Under the pieces are notes generated by a model. It was given only the letters and a program-made list of their open reading frames with translations. It had not been told where the DNA came from and did not search any database. Made by a program: the position numbers and the translations under genes. Below are positions 27,013 to 42,698 of a stretch of 64,000 nt of DNA, in pieces. The stretch is from Ectopseudomonas mendocina (GTDB lineage: Bacteria > Pseudomonadota > Gammaproteobacteria > Pseudomonadales > Pseudomonadaceae), in NCBI RefSeq assembly GCF_008041835.1, contig NZ_VRYE01000025.1, positions 1 through 64,000 on the forward strand. Direction: 5' to 3'. Every line of letters starts with the position of its first letter. The first letter of the stretch is position 1.

Positions 27013-27114
27013 GATCGTGCCCACGCTCCGCGTGGGTATGCAGCCTGGGACGCTCTGCGTCCCTCGGACGCAGAGCGTCCGTGAGGCGTTCCCACGCAGA
27101 GCATGGGAACGATC
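27013..27114. repeat. CCCACGC-type 100-bp palindromic element, copy 1
   Basis: It starts GATCGTGCCCACGCTCCGCG and ends GCATGGGAACGATC, so its ends are inverted. An inner GACGCTCTGCGTC/GACGCAGAGCGTC palindrome sits in the middle. Two further copies lie at 37756-37856 and 40874-40976. It carries no coding capacity. Confidence 0.9.
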
Positions 27115-31455: not shown

Positions 31456-32052
31456 ATGGCGTCTGAGTTGTTCAGCCTGTACCTGAAGATGCTGGTGCTC
31501 TACAGCCCCTTTTTCGTCCTGTCCTGCTTTATCGGCCTGAGCCGCGGCTACACCCTCCGGGAGCGCAAGCGTCTGGCCTGGAAGGTGGCGCTGGCGACGC
31601 TGATCGCCAGCGTGCTGCTGTACCTGTTCGGCAAACACATCTTCACCCTGTTCGGCATCACCATCGACGCCTTCCGTATCGGCGCAGGCAGCGTGCTGTT
31701 CATCTCCGCCCTGGGCATGGCCCAGGGCAAATCGGCTGTGCAGAGCGATAACGTGCAGCAGGACGTGACCATCGTCCCGCTGACCATCCCCATCACCGTC
31801 GGCCCTGGCACCATCGGCGCCCTGTTACTGATGGGCGCCAGCCAGCCGCACTGGGACGACAAGCTGGTGGCCGTGGCGGCGATCTTCCTCGCCAGCCTCA
31901 CCGTGGGCGTGGTGCTGTACCTGTCCAACCAGTTCGAACGCCTGCTTGGCGACCAGGGTCTGCAGATCGTCAGCCGCCTGATGGGGCTGTTCGTTTGCGC
32001 CCTGGCGGCGCAGATCATCTTCACCGGGGTGAAGAACTACCTGGTGCCCTGA
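31456..32052 (+). CDS. MarC family integral membrane protein
   Basis: The 198-residue protein has six predicted membrane helices and the family motifs PFFVLSCFIGLSRG near the N-terminus and PLTIPITVGPGTIG in the middle. MarC/UPF0056 proteins were once thought to confer drug resistance; that role was withdrawn and the function remains unknown. It lies 44 bases after retS and could be cotranscribed, as in P. aeruginosa. Confidence 0.9.
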   Translation: MASELFSLYLKMLVLYSPFFVLSCFIGLSRGYTLRERKRLAWKVALATLIASVLLYLFGKHIFTLFGITIDAFRIGAGSVLFISALGMAQGKSAVQSDNVQQDVTIVPLTIPITVGPGTIGALLLMGASQPHWDDKLVAVAAIFLASLTVGVVLYLSNQFERLLGDQGLQIVSRLMGLFVCALAAQIIFTGVKNYLVP

Positions 32053-32331
32053 AACCCCGATACCTGACGAACGCCTGCACCAACGCCCAGGGCAGGCTGT
32101 TCGCAGCAATCGCGTCTATCACTCCCCAGCCACAACTCTCAATCCGCAAACGAGCGGCGACGCGCCCTGCATCGCCTGCAACGCGAAGATTTTCTCCAGG
32201 CGCACTTGCGCCGCGCCTGGCAGGGTCGCCTGCGAATATTCGCCCGGCTCGACGCGCTCGAACTCGAAGCGGTGCGCCGCCCCTGCCAGCGCCCCACGGA
32301 TGAACACCCGCCTGCACCGCAGGCGCTGACT

Positions 32332-32348
32332 CGCACCTGGATGGTGCA
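32332..32348. promoter_or_regulatory. NtrC-binding site (predicted)
   Basis: CGCACC-TGGAT-GGTGCA matches the NtrC consensus TGCACC-N5-GGTGCA at 11 of 12 dyad positions. It sits about 190 bases upstream of the sigma-54 -24 element for urtA, a usual enhancer distance. Confidence 0.75.
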
Positions 32349-32539
32349 CAAGACGAGGCATCGGCGTTGCCGCTTCAGCCCCGACGCAACCGGTCACGGC
32401 CAATCACCGGCAATCACGAAAAGCCCCGCGTACCCCCCGAAATCCACGCGCAGGCGCGTATTGCGGGGCGGCTGCACCGCGTCCAGAGGCAGCGTATCGA
32501 GCTGAGCGGCGCCGGTGATCCTGACTCATCGTACGGAAG

Positions 32540-32555
32540 AGGCACAGCAATTGCT
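32540..32555 (+). promoter_or_regulatory. Sigma-54 promoter of the urt operon (predicted)
   Basis: AGGCACAGCAATTGCT fits the -24/-12 consensus GGCAC-N5-TTGC(A/T), with exactly ten bases between the invariant GG (32541-32542) and GC. The transcript would begin near 32567 and leave a leader of about 155 bases before urtA. Confidence 0.75.
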
Positions 32556-32723
32556 GAAGGGCCTTATAGAGGTCAGCAACGCAGGTGCATTTGCTCGACT
32601 TGCACAGGCGACACGGCGCTTGCCGGCGCGTAGAGCCGATGCTGGAGCAGCCAGGCCATGACCTTCACGTATGACCAATAACAACGCTGTCCACTTACTC
32701 AAGATGAGAATGGAGAACGCACC

Positions 32724-33989
32724 ATGCAACGTCGCAGCCTGATCAAGGCCTTTACCCTTTCCGCCTCCATCGCCGCCATGGGCCTGAGCTGGTCCATCCA
32801 GGCCGCCGAGACCATCAAGGTCGGCATCCTGCACTCGCTGTCCGGCACCATGGCCATCTCGGAAACCTCGCTGAAAGACATGGCGCTGATGACCATCGAC
32901 GAGATCAACGCCAAGGGCGGCGTACTCGGCAAGCAACTGGAGCCGGTGGTGGTCGACCCGGCGTCGAACTGGCCGCTGTTCGCCGAGCGTGGCCGCCAGT
33001 TGCTGACCCAGGACAAGGTCGCGGTGACCTTCGGCTGCTGGACCTCGGTATCGCGCAAATCCGTGCTGCCGGTCTATGAAGAGCTCAACGGCCTGCTGTT
33101 CTACCCGGTGCAGTACGAAGGCGAAGAAATGTCGCCGAACGTCTTCTACACCGGCGCAGCACCAAACCAGCAGGCCATCCCGGCGGTAGAATACCTGCTC
33201 AGCGAAGATGGCGGCGCCGCCAAGCGCTTCTTCCTGCTCGGCACCGACTACGTCTACCCGCGCACCACCAACAAGATCCTGCGCGCCTTCCTCAACAGCA
33301 AGGGCATCGCCGACAAGGACATCGAAGAGGTCTACACCCCCTTCGGCCATAGCGACTATCAAACCATCGTCGCCAACATCAAGAAGTTCTCCGCAGGCGG
33401 CAAGACGGCTGTGGTCTCCACCGTGAACGGCGACTCCAACGTGCCGTTCTACAAGGAGCTGGCCAACCAGGGCCTGGAAGCCACCGAAGTGCCGGTGGTG
33501 GCCTTCTCCGTGGGTGAAGAAGAACTGCGCGGCATCGACACCAAGCCGCTGGTCGGCCACCTGGCGGCCTGGAACTACTTCCAGTCCGTGGAGAACCCGG
33601 TCAACGAGAAGTTCGTCGCCGACTGGAAGGCCTATGCCAAGGCCAAGAAGCTGCCCAACGCCGACACCGTGGTGACCAACGACCCGATGGAAGCCACCTA
33701 TGTGGGCATCCACATGTGGGCGCAGGCGGTCGAGAAAGCCGGTACCACCGACGTCGACAAGGTGCGTGAAGCCATGGCCGGCCAGACCTTCGCCGCGCCG
33801 AGCGGCTTCACCCTGAAGATGGACGAGAAGAACCACCACCTGCACAAGCCGGTAATGATCGGCGAGATCCAGGAAGACGGTCAGTTCTCCGTGGTCTGGG
33901 AAACCGAAAGCCCGATCCGCGCCCAGCCGTGGAGCCCGTACATCGAAGGCAACGACAAGAAAGCCGATACCCCGGTGAAGTCGAACTAA
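32724..33989 (+). CDS. urtA: Urea ABC transporter substrate-binding protein
   Basis: The 421-residue periplasmic protein starts with a twin-arginine-like signal (MQRRSLIKAF) cut after about residue 27. It continues with IKVGILHSLSGTMAISE, typical of urea/short-chain amide binding proteins. It captures urea for the UrtBCDE importer. Motifs such as GCWTSVSRKS, YVYPRTTN and NDPMEATY are conserved in UrtA. A GGAGAA ribosome site precedes the ATG. It is the first gene of the urea block, behind the predicted sigma-54 promoter. Confidence 0.96.
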   Translation: MQRRSLIKAFTLSASIAAMGLSWSIQAAETIKVGILHSLSGTMAISETSLKDMALMTIDEINAKGGVLGKQLEPVVVDPASNWPLFAERGRQLLTQDKVAVTFGCWTSVSRKSVLPVYEELNGLLFYPVQYEGEEMSPNVFYTGAAPNQQAIPAVEYLLSEDGGAAKRFFLLGTDYVYPRTTNKILRAFLNSKGIADKDIEEVYTPFGHSDYQTIVANIKKFSAGGKTAVVSTVNGDSNVPFYKELANQGLEATEVPVVAFSVGEEELRGIDTKPLVGHLAAWNYFQSVENPVNEKFVADWKAYAKAKKLPNADTVVTNDPMEATYVGIHMWAQAVEKAGTTDVDKVREAMAGQTFAAPSGFTLKMDEKNHHLHKPVMIGEIQEDGQFSVVWETESPIRAQPWSPYIEGNDKKADTPVKSN

Positions 33990-34111: not shown

Positions 34112-34168
34112 GCCCCTCTCCCCCAGCCCCTTCTCCCATTCAGGGCGCAGGGGCAGTGGGAGAGGGCA
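34112..34168. repeat. CCCTCTCCC palindromic element, copy 3
   Basis: GCCCCTCTCCCCCAG at the left and GGGAGAGGGC at the right repeat the ends of the 338-451 element, with a shorter middle. Confidence 0.7.
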
Positions 34169-34172
34169 GCCC

Positions 34173-34222
34173 TAACCCGGATGCAATCCGGGAAGCTCGC
34201 CCCGGACGTCATCCGGGCTACG
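34173..34222. repeat. CCCGGATGCAATCCGGG repeat, copy 2
   Basis: TAACCCGGATGCAATCCGGGA is followed by CCCGGACGTCATCCGGGCTACG, an inverted partner. It ends about 15 bases before urtB and is the third repeat family packed into this one gap. Confidence 0.7.
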
Positions 34223-34236
34223 CCAAGGACACCCTT

Positions 34237-35805
34237 ATGCCCACTGCCCTTACCCGAATTTTCCTGAGCCTGCTGCTGTTGCTGCCACTGACGGCGCAGG
34301 CTGGCGAGGCCGACAATTTCGTCGCTGCCAACGCCAGCAAACAGGCCAAACTGCTGCAGGACTGGGCCGCCACGCCCAACACCGAACGCATGCCACTGCT
34401 GCAAGCCCTGCAGCAGGGCCGCGTCGGCAGCGATGCCGACAAACGTGCCTTCATCGAACAGGACGGCACCTGGCAGGCCGCCGATGGCGACGCAGAAGCC
34501 AATGGCACGCCACGCAAACTGCGCCTGAACAACCGCCTACGCGGCCTGGTCACCTTCGCCGTGGCCAGCCATCAGTTGCTCGATGACGATGCCGCCGTGC
34601 GCCTCGCTGCGGCCAAGCAACTGCAACGCAACACGCCGCCGACACTGCTGCCGCTGCTGGAAAACCGCCTGAGCATGGAAGCCGACGAGAACGTGCGTGA
34701 CGCCATCACCCTGGCCCTGGCCAACCTGCAACTGGAGGCCAGCGACCCGGCCGTGCGCCTGGCGGCCGTGGAGCGCCTGGGCAAGACCGGCGACCCGCTG
34801 GCGCGCACCCGCCTGCAAAGCCTGCTCGATGGCGCGGAAAGCGATAGCGCCGTGCGCGCCGCTGCCGAGCAGAGCCTGGCCCAGGTGAAGAACAAACTGC
34901 TGATCGGCGAACTGCTCGGCCAGGCCTTCAGCGGCCTGTCGCTGGGCTCGATACTGCTGCTCGCAGCGCTGGGCCTGGCCATTACCTTCGGCCTGCTCGG
35001 GGTGATCAACATGGCCCACGGCGAGATGCTGATGCTGGGCGCCTACACCACCTACGTGGTGCAGCTGAGCTTCCAGCGCCTGGCGCCCGAATACCTCACG
35101 CTCTACCCACTGGCTGCGTTGCCGATCGCCTTTGTGGTCACCGCCTGCATCGGCATGGCGCTGGAGCGCACGGTGATCCGCCACCTCTACGGTCGCCCTT
35201 TGGAAACCCTGCTGGCCACCTGGGGTATCAGCCTGATCCTGATCCAGCTGGTGCGCGTCACCTTCGGTGCGCAGAACGTCGAAGTGGCCAACCCGGCCTG
35301 GCTGTCTGGCGGCATGCAGGTGCTGCCCAACCTGGTACTGCCCTACAACCGCATCGTCATTATCGGCTTCGCCTTGTTCGTCGTGGTCCTGACCTGGCTG
35401 CTGCTGAACAAGACACGCCTGGGCCTGAACGTGCGTGCAGTGACCCAGAACCGCAACATGGCCGCCTGCTGCGGCGTGCCCACCGGGCGCGTGGACATGC
35501 TGGCCTTCGGTCTCGGCTCAGGCATCGCCGGCCTCGGCGGCGTAGCCCTGAGCCAGATCGGCAACGTCGGCCCGGACCTCGGTCAGAGCTACATCATCGA
35601 CTCCTTCCTGGTGGTGGTACTCGGCGGCGTCGGGCAACTGGCCGGTAGCGTGCTGGCCGCCTTCGGCCTGGGCGTAGTGAACAAATTCCTCGAACCGCAG
35701 ATCGGTGCCGTGCTCGGCAAGATCCTCATCCTCGCGCTGATCATTCTGTTTATCCAGAAACGCCCGCAAGGCCTCTTCGCTCTCAAAGGACGGGTGATCG
35801 ACTGA
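34237..35805 (+). CDS. urtB: Urea ABC transporter permease UrtB
   Basis: The 522-residue permease has a cleavable signal peptide, a periplasmic alpha-helical extension of about 200 residues (the long UrtB form of proteobacteria) and a LivH-type membrane domain (about 225-520) with NMAHGEMLMLGAYTT. It forms the channel with UrtC. I use the ATG at 34237 with its AAGGAC site; in-frame sequence upstream is repeat DNA. The stop overlaps the urtC start (TGATG). Confidence 0.95.
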   Translation: MPTALTRIFLSLLLLLPLTAQAGEADNFVAANASKQAKLLQDWAATPNTERMPLLQALQQGRVGSDADKRAFIEQDGTWQAADGDAEANGTPRKLRLNNRLRGLVTFAVASHQLLDDDAAVRLAAAKQLQRNTPPTLLPLLENRLSMEADENVRDAITLALANLQLEASDPAVRLAAVERLGKTGDPLARTRLQSLLDGAESDSAVRAAAEQSLAQVKNKLLIGELLGQAFSGLSLGSILLLAALGLAITFGLLGVINMAHGEMLMLGAYTTYVVQLSFQRLAPEYLTLYPLAALPIAFVVTACIGMALERTVIRHLYGRPLETLLATWGISLILIQLVRVTFGAQNVEVANPAWLSGGMQVLPNLVLPYNRIVIIGFALFVVVLTWLLLNKTRLGLNVRAVTQNRNMAACCGVPTGRVDMLAFGLGSGIAGLGGVALSQIGNVGPDLGQSYIIDSFLVVVLGGVGQLAGSVLAAFGLGVVNKFLEPQIGAVLGKILILALIILFIQKRPQGLFALKGRVID

Positions 35806-36896
35806 TGACCATGCCACTCAATCAAACGCTGCTGGCCCGCGCCAGCGCCAAACTCGGCCCGCAGGTATCCATCGCCATCGGCCTGGTGGTGCTGGCGATC
35901 CTGCTGGCCATGCCGTTGCTGCACCTGCTGCCGGCCGACCATGCCCTGCACGTCTCGGCCTATTCGCTGACCCTGGTGGGCAAGATCCTCTGCTACGCCA
36001 TCGTCGCACTGGCGCTGGATCTGGTCTGGGGCTACGCCGGCATGCTGTCGCTGGGCCACGGCCTGTTCTTCGCCCTCGGCGGCTACGCCATGGGCATGTA
36101 TCTGATGCGCCAGTCGGCGGGTGACGGGCTGCCGGCCTTTATGAGCTTCCTGGCCTGGAACGAGCTGCCCTGGTACTGGTACGGCACCTCCAGCTTCCTC
36201 TGGGCCATGTGCCTGGTGGTGCTGGCGCCCGGCCTGCTGGCGCTGGTGTTCGGCTTCTTCGCCTTCCGCTCGCGGATCAAGGGCGTGTACTTCTCGATCA
36301 TGACCCAGGCGCTGACCTTCGCCGGCATGCTGCTGTTCTTTCGTAACGAAACCGGCTTCGGCGGCAACAACGGCTTTACCGGCTTCACCCGCATCCTCGG
36401 CTTCGACATCACCGCGCAGAGCACCCGCGCCGCGCTGTTCTTCGCCACCGTGGTGTTGCTGGTGGGCAGCCTGTACCTGGGCTTTCGCCTGGCACGCAGC
36501 AAGTTCGGCCGGGTGCTTACCGCCCTGCGTGACGCCGAGAACCGCCTGATGTTCTGCGGCTACGACCCACGCGGCTACAAGCTGTTTATCTGGGTGCTCT
36601 CCGCCGTGTTATGCGGCCTGGCCGGCGCGCTGTACGTGCCGCAGGTGGGCATCATCAACCCCAGCGAGATGGCGCCGACCCAGTCCATCGAGGCCGCCGT
36701 CTGGGTCGCCCTGGGCGGTCGCGGCACGCTGATCGGCCCGCTGCTCGGCGCCGGCCTGGTCAACGGCATGAAGAGCTGGTTCACCGTGGCCTTCCCGGAA
36801 TACTGGCTGTTCGCCCTGGGCGCGCTGTTTATCGTCGTCACCCTCTTTCTACCCAAGGGAGTGATCGGCCTGCTGAAGAAGGAGAAGGATCAATGA
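35805..36896 (+). CDS. urtC: Urea ABC transporter permease UrtC
   Basis: The 363-residue LivM-type permease has about nine membrane spans and the conserved segments LDLVWGYAGMLSLGHG and LSAVLCGLAGALYVPQ. It pairs with UrtB. Its start overlaps the urtB stop and its own stop overlaps the urtD ATG (ATGA), so urtBCD are tightly coupled. Confidence 0.96.
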   Translation: MTMPLNQTLLARASAKLGPQVSIAIGLVVLAILLAMPLLHLLPADHALHVSAYSLTLVGKILCYAIVALALDLVWGYAGMLSLGHGLFFALGGYAMGMYLMRQSAGDGLPAFMSFLAWNELPWYWYGTSSFLWAMCLVVLAPGLLALVFGFFAFRSRIKGVYFSIMTQALTFAGMLLFFRNETGFGGNNGFTGFTRILGFDITAQSTRAALFFATVVLLVGSLYLGFRLARSKFGRVLTALRDAENRLMFCGYDPRGYKLFIWVLSAVLCGLAGALYVPQVGIINPSEMAPTQSIEAAVWVALGGRGTLIGPLLGAGLVNGMKSWFTVAFPEYWLFALGALFIVVTLFLPKGVIGLLKKEKDQ

Positions 36897-37735
36897 GAGC
36901 CACTCCCCTGCCCGAGACCATGCTCGAAGCCACCTTCGACCCTACCGGCCTGGCGTTGGACACCGGCAAGACCGTCGGCAAGGGCGTCAACGTCCGCCAC
37001 GGCACCATCCTCACGCTGGAAGACATCAACGTCAGCTTCGATGGCTTCAAGGCACTGACCAACCTGACCCTGTACATCGGCGTCGGTGAGCTGCGCTGCA
37101 TCATCGGCCCGAATGGCGCCGGCAAGACCACCATGATGGACGTGATCACCGGCAAGACCCGCCCGGACAACGGCGTGGCCTACTTCGGCGAGCAGTACGA
37201 CCTGACCGCCATGAGCGAAGTGCAGATCGCCCAGGCCGGCATTGGCCGCAAGTTCCAGAAACCCACCGTGTTCGAAGCGCTGACGGTGTTCGAAAACCTA
37301 GAGCTGGCGCAGAAGACCAACAAGTCGGTATGGGCCAGCCTGCGCGCCAGACTCAGTGGCGAGCAGAAGGATCGTATCGAGGAAGTGCTGAGCACCATTC
37401 GCCTGGAAGCCTCGCGCAACCGCCCGGCTGGCCTGCTCTCCCACGGTCAGAAACAGTTCCTCGAGATCGGCATGCTACTGATGCAGGAGCCGCACCTGCT
37501 ACTGCTCGATGAACCGGTAGCTGGCATGACCGATGCCGAGACTGAGTTCACCGCCGAACTGTTCAAATCGCTGGCACGCAAGCACTCGCTGATGGTGGTG
37601 GAGCACGACATGGGCTTCGTCGGCTCAATCGCTGACCACGTCACCGTGCTGCACCAAGGCAGCGTGCTGGCCGAAGGCTCGCTGGAACAGGTACAGAACG
37701 ACGAGCGGGTGATCGAGGTTTATCTGGGGCGCTGA
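36893..37735 (+). CDS. urtD: Urea ABC transporter ATPase UrtD
   Basis: The 280-residue LivG-type ATPase has Walker A GPNGAGKT, the ABC signature LSHGQKQ and Walker B LLLLDEP, followed by the H-loop in EHDMGF. An N-terminal extension of about 35 residues precedes the ABC fold. I place the start at 36893, overlapping the urtC stop; longer frames run inside urtC. A repeat element separates it from urtE. Confidence 0.96.
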   Translation: MRATPLPETMLEATFDPTGLALDTGKTVGKGVNVRHGTILTLEDINVSFDGFKALTNLTLYIGVGELRCIIGPNGAGKTTMMDVITGKTRPDNGVAYFGEQYDLTAMSEVQIAQAGIGRKFQKPTVFEALTVFENLELAQKTNKSVWASLRARLSGEQKDRIEEVLSTIRLEASRNRPAGLLSHGQKQFLEIGMLLMQEPHLLLLDEPVAGMTDAETEFTAELFKSLARKHSLMVVEHDMGFVGSIADHVTVLHQGSVLAEGSLEQVQNDERVIEVYLGR

Positions 37736-37755
37736 CAACCGTGCGCACCGCATTC

Positions 37756-37856
37756 GATGGTTCCCACGCTCCGCGTGGGAACCCCTCCAGGAACGCTCTG
37801 CGTTCCAGCGACGCGGAGCGTCGTCAGCTACATGTCCACGCAGAGCGTGGGCACGA
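37756..37856. repeat. CCCACGC-type palindromic element, copy 2 (urtD-urtE gap)
   Basis: It begins GATGGTTCCCACGCTCCGCG and ends GCGTGGGCACGA, with inverted ends and the inner GCGTTCC/GACGC palindrome of the family. It fills almost the whole urtD-urtE gap and runs to within about 10 bases of the urtE start codon. Confidence 0.9.
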
Positions 37857-37866
37857 GAGGTACGCC

Positions 37867-38565
37867 ATGCTGCAAGTCCAACAACTCCACCAGTATTACG
37901 GCGGCAGCCACATCCTTCGTGGCCTGTCGTTCGACGTGAAGGTCGGCGAAGTCACCTGCCTGCTCGGCCGCAACGGCGTGGGCAAGACCACCCTGCTCAA
38001 GTGCCTGATGGGCCTGATCCCGGCCAAGGACGGCAGCGTGCAATGGGAAGGCAAGGCCATCACCGGCTTCAAACCACACCAGCGCGTACACGCCGGCATC
38101 GCCTACGTGCCGCAGGGCCGCGAAATCTTCGGCCGCCTGACGGTGGAAGAGAACCTGCTGATGGGCCTGTCGCGCTTTCCCGGCAGCCAGGCCAAGGCCG
38201 TCCCGGAGTTCATCTACGAGCTGTTCCCGGTGTTGCGCGAAATGAAGCATCGCCGTGGCGGCGATCTGTCCGGTGGCCAGCAGCAACAGCTGGCCATCGG
38301 CCGCGCCCTCGCCAGCCAGCCGCGCCTGCTGATCCTCGACGAACCCACCGAAGGTATCCAGCCCTCGGTGATCAAGGAGATCGGCGTAGTGATCAAGAAG
38401 CTCGCCGCTCGCGGCGACATGGCCATCCTGCTGGTGGAGCAGTTCTACGACTTCGCCGCCGAACTGGCCGACCAGTATCTGGTGATGAGCCGTGGTGAGA
38501 TCGTCCAGCAGGGCCGTGGCGAGAACATGGAAGCCGAAGGCGTGCGCGGGCTTGTAGCCATCTGA
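37867..38565 (+). CDS. urtE: Urea ABC transporter ATPase UrtE
   Basis: The 232-residue LivF-type ATPase has GRNGVGKT (Walker A), LSGGQQQ (signature) and LLILDEP (Walker B), with the family segment YVPQGREIFGRLTVEEN. I choose the ATG at 37867 because the usual N-terminus (MLQVQQLHQYYGG) begins there. The in-frame extension upstream is translated repeat. The ribosome site GAGAGG lies at the repeat boundary. Confidence 0.95.
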   Translation: MLQVQQLHQYYGGSHILRGLSFDVKVGEVTCLLGRNGVGKTTLLKCLMGLIPAKDGSVQWEGKAITGFKPHQRVHAGIAYVPQGREIFGRLTVEENLLMGLSRFPGSQAKAVPEFIYELFPVLREMKHRRGGDLSGGQQQQLAIGRALASQPRLLILDEPTEGIQPSVIKEIGVVIKKLAARGDMAILLVEQFYDFAAELADQYLVMSRGEIVQQGRGENMEAEGVRGLVAI

Positions 38566-38652: not shown

Positions 38653-38667
38653 GGCACGCCTCTTGCT
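38653..38667 (+). promoter_or_regulatory. Sigma-54 promoter of ureD (predicted)
   Basis: GGCACG-CCTC-TTGCT is a full match to the sigma-54 consensus, with correct spacing between GG (38653-38654) and GC (38665-38666). The start would be near 38678, 31 bases before ureD. An imperfect NtrC-like GCACC-N5-GGTTC (38636-38650) abuts it. Confidence 0.8.
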
Positions 38668-40035: not shown

Positions 40036-40536
40036 ATGAGCTATTCGATCGTTGATGCGAGCGAAGCTGATCTGCCGGGCATCCTCGCCATCTACAACGA
40101 CGCGGTGCAGCACACCACAGCGATCTGGAACGAGACGCTGGTGGATCTGGCCAACCGCCGTGCCTGGCTGGCCGAGCGCACGGCAGCGGGTTTTCCCGTG
40201 CTGGTCGCCCATAACGCCGCCGGCGAGGTAGTCGGCTACGCCAGCTACGGTACCTGGCGCAGCATCGAAGGTTTTCGCCACACCGTCGAGCACTCGGTCT
40301 ATGTGCGCGGCGACCAACGCGGCAAGGGCCTCGGCCCGCTGCTGATGCAGGCGCTGATCGAGCACGCCCGCGCCGCCAATCTGCACGTCATGGTCGCCGC
40401 CATCGAGTCGGAAAATGCCGCCTCGATTCGCCTGCACCAGCGCCTCGGCTTCGTCACCACCGGGCAGATGCCCCAGGTCGGGCGCAAGTTCGGGCGCTGG
40501 CTGGATCTGACTTTCATGCAACTGATTCTGGAGTGA
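40036..40536 (+). CDS. GNAT acetyltransferase (phosphinothricin/methionine-sulfone type)
   Basis: The 166-residue protein has the Pat/MddA family layout: [20 protein letters not shown] at the start and the acetyl-CoA loop QRGKGLG (about 95-101). Relatives N-acetylate phosphinothricin, methionine sulfoximine or methionine sulfone. It sits between ureA and ureB with gaps of only 3 and 7 bases. P. aeruginosa has the same insertion, so it is an old resident of the urease operon. Any link to nitrogen metabolism is inference. Confidence 0.92.
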
Positions 40537-40873: not shown

Positions 40874-40976
40874 GATGGTTCCCACGCTCTGCGTGGGAAC
40901 CCATAGCGGGACGCTCCGCGTCCCTGCGACGCAGAGCGTCGCCAACTGCATATCCACGCAGAGCGTGGGCACGATC
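40874..40976. repeat. CCCACGC-type palindromic element, copy 3 (ureB-ureC gap)
   Basis: GATGGTTCCCACGCTCTGCG at the left and GCGTGGGCACGATC at the right repeat copies 1 and 2. An ATG inside it is in frame with ureC, which would create a false 41-residue N-terminal extension beginning [10 protein letters not shown]. Confidence 0.92.

Positions 40977-40997: not shown

Positions 40998-42698
<1,701 letters not shown>

Follow-up and report, generated by a model that had tools for sequence, protein, structure and literature searches.

Our comparative analysis of a 64,000-nucleotide stretch of Ectopseudomonas mendocina DNA (hereafter the window, meaning this whole stretch) revealed that the space in front of the urea importer gene urtA is filled by the remnant of a dead gene for a GntR/FCD regulator. 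A sigma-54 promoter sequence and, upstream of it, an NtrC-type dyad lie within the former codons of this gene and stayed intact in the window while the remainder decayed. Taken as a whole, the account in which NtrC and sigma-54 control urtABCDE from elements kept in a dead gntR is probably correct. Three lines of evidence support the original prediction that urtA is served by a sigma-54 promoter and an NtrC site upstream of it: conservation in the genus, the rare codons kept at the promoter in intact gntR genes, and survival of the elements amid decay. The further claim of that prediction that the promoter accounts for the long gap before urtA was wrong, as the gap is what a deletion left of gntR, which corrects the view of the marC-urtA gap as ordinary intergenic promoter DNA.

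The dyad CGCACCTGGATGGTGCA, read as CGCACC-TGGAT-GGTGCA, matches 11 of the 12 dyad positions of the NtrC consensus TGCACC-N5-GGTGCA, just as had been described. The sigma-54 16-mer AGGCACAGCAATTGCT lies 5' of urtA and contains the -24/-12 consensus core GGCAC-N5-TTGC as GGCACAGCAATTGC at 32541-32554, with the exact GG-N10-GC spacing that the original prediction had reported. By our count 191 bases separate the dyad from the 16-mer, in agreement with the roughly 190 proposed, and the sigma-54 site falls at -184 relative to urtA, within the gene remnant. NtrC enhancers are usually paired; a single dyad was found at the urtA locus, in enhancer range. The positions of these elements and of the surrounding genes are collected in the table.

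Features of the marC-urtA region and the urt operon (window positions)
Feature	Position	Strand	Basis and remarks
MarC-like (NAAT family) membrane protein gene	31456..32052	+	NCBIfam TIGR00427, 117.1 bits (cut-off 99.2); left neighbour of the gap
GntR/FCD regulator gene remnant	32158..32671	+	tblastn; internal deletions; in-frame TGA at 32503-32505
NtrC-type dyad	32332..32348	+	codons for RTWMV-H of the dead gene; motif match and decay comparison
Sigma-54 promoter AGGCACAGCAATTGCT	32540..32555	+	codons for EAQQLL of the dead gene; motif, decay and codon comparison
Predicted transcription start (A)	32566	+	12 bases past the C of TTGC; from the -24/-12 geometry
Predicted urtA leader, 158 nt	32566..32723	+	predicted; no difference from G291 in 32517-32723
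urtA	32724..33989	+	TIGR03407, 602.3 bits (cut-off 492.75)
urtB, urtC, urtD, urtE	34156..38565	+	TIGR03409, TIGR03408, TIGR03411, TIGR03410, all above cut-off; some ORF starts probably too early

Singly, both motifs are within what chance would give over 64 kb. With at most one mismatch, the dyad occurred once in the window (0.51 expected; at least one in 42 of 100 shuffles) and the sigma-54 core twice (1.25 expected; at least two in 36 of 100 shuffles). Since a coincidence of motifs is possible from the letters alone, comparison with relatives was needed. Over the whole genome (4.79 Mb in 248 contigs), 51 sigma-54 cores were counted against 32 for a reversed-pattern control, and the dyad with at most one mismatch was present at 25 places against 3 for its control. 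The urtA locus is the only place genome-wide where dyad and core lie within 1 kb of each other, the next pair being 4.1 kb apart; about 0.13 dyad-core pairs within 500 bp were expected by chance.

The nitrogen-control machinery is encoded in the window genome, where profiles for NtrC (TIGR01818, 792.3 bits) and RpoN (TIGR02395, 518.3 bits) were matched above cut-off, as they were in both genomes of the species. A perfect TGCACC-N5-GGTGCA, located about 1.3 kb upstream of ntrC in the same genome, fits the consensus, and a loose sigma-54 scan beside that dyad gave no match. Scanning of 32040-32760 detected neither a sigma-70-like promoter nor a terminator-like site.

The identity of the gap was established by tblastn of the intact GntR/FCD proteins of two relatives (L084 and L085) against the whole window, which returned matches only at 32158-32583 and 32573-32671 (E at most 1e-3), with best E values of 4.7e-29 and 2.2e-26. 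Residues 1-52 of the protein were unmatched in the window, and the alignment, which is gapped, begins at residue 53. The translated pieces of the remnant matched no Pfam family; in G012 the gene is whole, and its protein carries both the GntR (winged-helix) and the FCD Pfam domains, an intact frame that the remnant in the window does not have. In the relatives with intact gntR that were examined, the gene adjoins urtA downstream of urea carboxylase or allophanate hydrolase genes, and both elements form part of its codons, in frame and within the FCD part.

The same junction and the same decay are common to the window genome (G000), the second genome of the species (G291), G100 and G306, the latter two having been found through a 21-base pattern present in 29 of 398 genomes of the genus; these four dead-gene genomes count as one common decay event. 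Allophanate hydrolase was above cut-off in none of the four and in all five genomes with intact gntR. Urea carboxylase was below cut-off in G000, G291 and G100, and in G306 it gave a partial match over 770 positions (1262.6 bits, under the cut-off of 1303.85); it was above cut-off in eight of nine other genomes, the exception (G066) belonging to another family.

The death of gntR provided a comparison of the two elements with the gene body around them. Columns unanimous in the intact relatives L081, L084, L085 and L121 were taken as conserved, and changes on the dead-gene lineage were counted. The gene body had changed at 62 of 276 such columns (21/133 before the dyad and 41/143 between the elements), as against 0 of 31 in the elements themselves (dyad 0/15, sigma-54 16-mer 0/16; p 6e-4). 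Only 2 of 48 columns had changed from just upstream of the sigma-54 site to +20. The elements are not alone in changing little: in the leader near urtA 2 of 51 columns had changed, which shows that part of the region is also constrained for other reasons. At the 3' end of the gene 5 of 47 columns had changed, and in the opening 30 bases of urtA 0 of 28. The sigma-54 16-mer is invariant across the four dead-gene genomes, in which the dyad varies at three columns, two of them in the spacer. The G291 dyad has two changed spacer bases and unchanged arms, in L213 the spacer gained a stop codon while both arms remained unchanged, and in L212 one arm base differs. In the reference gene the start of the dyad lies 248 bases from the GG (82 codons and 2 bases, from codon numbers); in the window this distance has fallen to 209, with both ends kept. 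Compared with G291, the window shows 21 differences across 32053-32516 and is identical over 32517-32723 (p 3.7e-4, an optimistic value, as the 32516/32517 boundary was chosen after viewing the differences).

Comparison of 72 gntR genes, 37 adjoining urtA and 35 without urtA beside them, linked the sigma-54 site to the presence of urtA. Duplicate loci L045-L048 were left out of these counts, which likewise do not include the G099 C108 match and nine lower-ranked matches. The exact core is present, in frame, in 28 of the 37 adjacent genes and in none of the 35 non-adjacent ones, seven of which score 8/9. The pattern requires three changes on the 72-gene tree and two on the 37-gene tree. A Fisher test of adjacent against non-adjacent genes was set aside as proof, given that the genes are related and the independent changes few. 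As an observation in its own right, gntR adjoins urtA without an exact core in the scanned stretch at nine of the 37 loci (L040, L041, L043, L065, L066, L068, L082, L086 and L089). No substitute with intact GG and GC and at least eight matches was found in the stretch scanned; L043, L065 and L089 carry an 8/9 core from which one G of the GG is missing.

Codon usage in intact gntR pointed to the same site. When codons of the 37 adjacent genes were ranked for conserved rarity, codons 213, 207, 208 and 205 were among the top seven of 190, whereas in the 35 non-adjacent genes they took ranks 122, 10, 61 and 93, respectively. All four of these top-ranked codons belong to the sigma-54 site or to the start predicted from it, and GCA at codon 205 was used in 34 of 37 adjacent genes as against none of the 35 non-adjacent ones. 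In the clade of 34 members to which all the sites belong, codons 203-208 underwent 1 to 3 changes each, where the mean was 3.8 for all codons and 5.0 for non-preferred ones; codons such as 25 and 199 are equally constant there. Such change counts moderately support a constraint that would act on the sigma-54 site. Windows of synonymous conservation were high at the site and equal or higher near codons 21-29 and 219-227. Separately, codon 173 of the adjacent genes is a rare AGG arginine codon in 21 of 37, an outlier without a known element; together with codon 139, which ranks high in both gene sets, it indicates that not every codon outlier is regulatory.

Two further codon arguments were rejected. 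In a 29-member group only codons 203, 205 and 208 of 47 non-preferred codons were without third-base change, 205 and 208 lying within the sigma-54 site and 203 just upstream of it. A split with support 0.75 separates this group from the others of the 37 genes, but the group forms no clade in the wider tree and is nearly defined by having the site; the test is hence partly circular, and it was set aside with its hypergeometric value unused. The codon signal is weaker in the unselected 34-member clade and over the full set of 37 genes than in this group. ATA at codon 213, the predicted start, could not be taken as fixed: it occurs in 23 of 37 genes and is rare elsewhere, but underwent seven changes on the tree.

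The sigma-54 site before urtA is not confined to the loci with gntR. Among named Pseudomonas urtA loci (the best 80 of at least 593), 73 of 80 have an exact core within 260 bases upstream of urtA and 79 of 80 have at least 8/9 core matches (six at 8/9, none in L197), whereas at the 8/9 threshold a control inside urtA gave 0 of 80 and a control far upstream 1 of 80. In these best 80 of at least 593 loci the median position of the site is -78, near urtA, unlike the window, in which it lies at -184 in a gene remnant; in the gntR-urtA group it is found at about -170 to -220. Of the UrtA matches listed, from which records very near the window's genome may be absent, the closest named records were P. 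sediminis (99%) and P. khazarica and P. composti (98%), and each of their urtA loci has an exact sigma-54 site at -187.

The dyad follows the core in the gntR-urtA group, with at least 10 of 12 positions in 22 of the 28 exact-core genes and in none of the nine adjacent genes without the exact core; 4 of the 35 non-adjacent genes reach this level. Only 6 to 9 positions are matched in 15 of the 37 adjacent genes, and six exact-core genes (L042, L060-L063 and L044) have dyads of 7 to 9. Four genes carry a perfect dyad in which TGC (Cys) replaces CGC (Arg), which takes three changes by parsimony. Because mutations from CGC to TGC are common, these perfect dyads are suggestive only. Elsewhere in the genus, in a scan of the 40-200 bases preceding the sigma-54 site, the top dyad scored at least 10 at 18 of 79 loci, which are related to one another (from the best 80 of at least 593); a control placed inside urtA reached this score at 1 of 79. 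Of the 18 dyads, 17 lay 69 to 113 bases before the site. The dyad is a probable NtrC site, less certain than the promoter, and of the two elements the sigma-54 sequence has the stronger support.

The mechanism suggested by these observations is as follows. Under nitrogen limitation, phosphorylated NtrC would bind the dyad and loop from there to the sigma-54 RNA polymerase at the downstream element, so that transcription would begin near the predicted A and run through the leader into urtABCDE. Both elements presumably arose in an ancestor inside the coding sequence of gntR, which had the urea carboxylase/allophanate hydrolase genes on one side and urtA on the other. A deletion common to the window genome and three others would then have removed the neighbouring pathway genes together with the first part of gntR; what remained of the gene decayed, and both elements stayed, presumably through selection for their regulatory role. 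As in other intragenic sigma-54 promoters, the upstream gene houses the element, in its coding sequence in 28 of 37 relatives and in its remnant in the window. Conservation of the element goes beyond what the protein needs, judging from the rare codons, the change counts and the dead-gene comparison. A broader interpretation, which we put forward tentatively and consider possible rather than probable, is that the codons of an adjacent regulator gene had come to carry a complete enhancer and promoter for nitrogen control, in places at the cost of the protein, and that after the pathway was lost the gene was no longer needed while its DNA persisted to control the operon that follows, and so turned from coding into cis-regulatory sequence.

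Other explanations of these data were weighed. Both sites might be accidents of gntR codons (EAQQLL and RTWMV) that persist through the recency of the gene loss, with urtA driven from elsewhere. This would agree with the in-frame position of both sites within the FCD part, with the chance-level motif counts in the window and with the few independent site changes on the tree. It leaves unexplained that rare codons are kept at the site in adjacent and not in non-adjacent genes, that all 35 gntR relatives away from urtA are without the exact core, that 22% of conserved gene-body columns changed as against none of the 31 in the elements, and that the site is near-universal among named urtA loci (the best 80 of at least 593); we consider such an accident quite improbable.

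It is rather unlikely, though the strongest of the alternatives, that the promoter is real and the dyad is no enhancer, NtrC or another activator binding elsewhere. The retention of dyad scores of at least 10/12 by 22 of 28 exact-core genes (four of them perfect) and by none of the nine without the core, as well as the survival of the dyad arms in the dead gene, with one base differing in one of four genomes, argue against this, while the six exact-core genes with poor dyads and the position of the genus-wide dyads, 69 to 113 rather than 209 bases before the site in 17 of 18 (scan of 40-200 bases, best 80 of at least 593 loci), argue in its favour. Transcription of urtA by read-through or from a sigma-70 promoter, with the sigma-54 site only auxiliary, appears improbable, as the scan used gave no sigma-70-like site in 32040-32760 and the left neighbour is an unrelated marC-like gene; on the other side stand the nine gntR-urtA genomes without an exact core and the induction of urtA in an rpoN mutant of P. 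putida (PMC7801951).

Beyond the marC-urtA gap, several other features of the urease/urt region were recorded. A second exact sigma-54 core, GGCACGCCTCTTGC at 38653-38666, ends 43 bases before the likely start of ureD (38709). It was present at five of the eight loci in which ureD was found, i.e., the window, G291, G012, G306 and G284, and absent in L237, L241 and L242; ureD was not found in the 10 other stretches compared. This core may provide the urease genes with a nitrogen promoter of their own. The Rfam family 5_ureB_sRNA was matched (128.2 bits) at 41147-41430 on the minus strand, antisense in the urease alpha subunit gene, and the match may reflect only conserved coding sequence. Copies of a dispersed imperfect repeat with internal inverted symmetry (27013-27079, 37756-37856 and 40874-40974) lie close to junctions between genes, among them urtD-urtE and the presumed ureB-ureC. 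In the urease cluster, an ORF at 40036-40536, acetyltransferase-like by its sequence, separates the presumed ureA from the presumed ureB.

Published work already covers the induction of Pseudomonas urt genes in nitrogen limitation (PMC7801951) and sigma-54 promoters inside genes (PMC4591121). As far as the searched literature shows, with few subscription journals covered, two things are new: that a regulator gene of this group contains a promoter with its enhancer, and that both outlived the gene; in that search no report was recognised on a promoter kept in a dead bacterial gene, nor on this locus. The urt operon of P. putida (PP_4841-4844) has the same target genes as the window, is induced in nitrogen limitation and is assigned NtrB/NtrC as putative regulator in PMC7801951, which cites earlier work on the induction of P. 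putida urea transporter genes by NtrC. According to Table 2 of that paper, urtA of P. putida KT2440 was induced 12.7-fold in the wild type and 11.12-fold in the rpoN mutant under nitrogen limitation, and PP_2686 to PP_2688, also attributed to NtrB/NtrC, were induced in the same mutant, which argues against strict RpoN dependence of urtA in P. putida. A further point against the account given here is that the passage on NtrC control of urt genes in a comparative study (PMC5343134) names Alteromonadales, Oceanospirillales, Rhizobiales and Rhodobacterales, and Pseudomonas is not named in it.

A neighbourhood with the same gene set, atzF-uca-gntR-urtABCDE-ure, was described in the related organism Ectopseudomonas guguanensis G3; unlike that locus, the window is without uca and atzF and its gntR is a remnant. 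The text of that paper (PMC13296017) contains no mention of NtrC, and no promoter in gntR is named in its passages on the locus. The closest likeness in kind is offered by the intragenic sigma-54 promoters of E. coli (nagB, rlmD, yqeC), which, according to PMC4591121, lie within an upstream gene, drive the downstream gene through an unusually long leader and are conserved. Their host genes are present and the confirmed leaders measure 360-760 nt, whereas in the window the host is dead and the predicted leader has 158 nt. The same source names codon constraint as a possible confounder of conservation at intragenic sigma-54 sites, and the functional share of such sites has been hard to judge because a conserved protein could explain the conserved DNA. 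With gntR dead in the window this confounder is removed: in four genomes the constraint of the protein is gone while the promoter and, nearly so, the dyad are intact, which helps to separate the two explanations.
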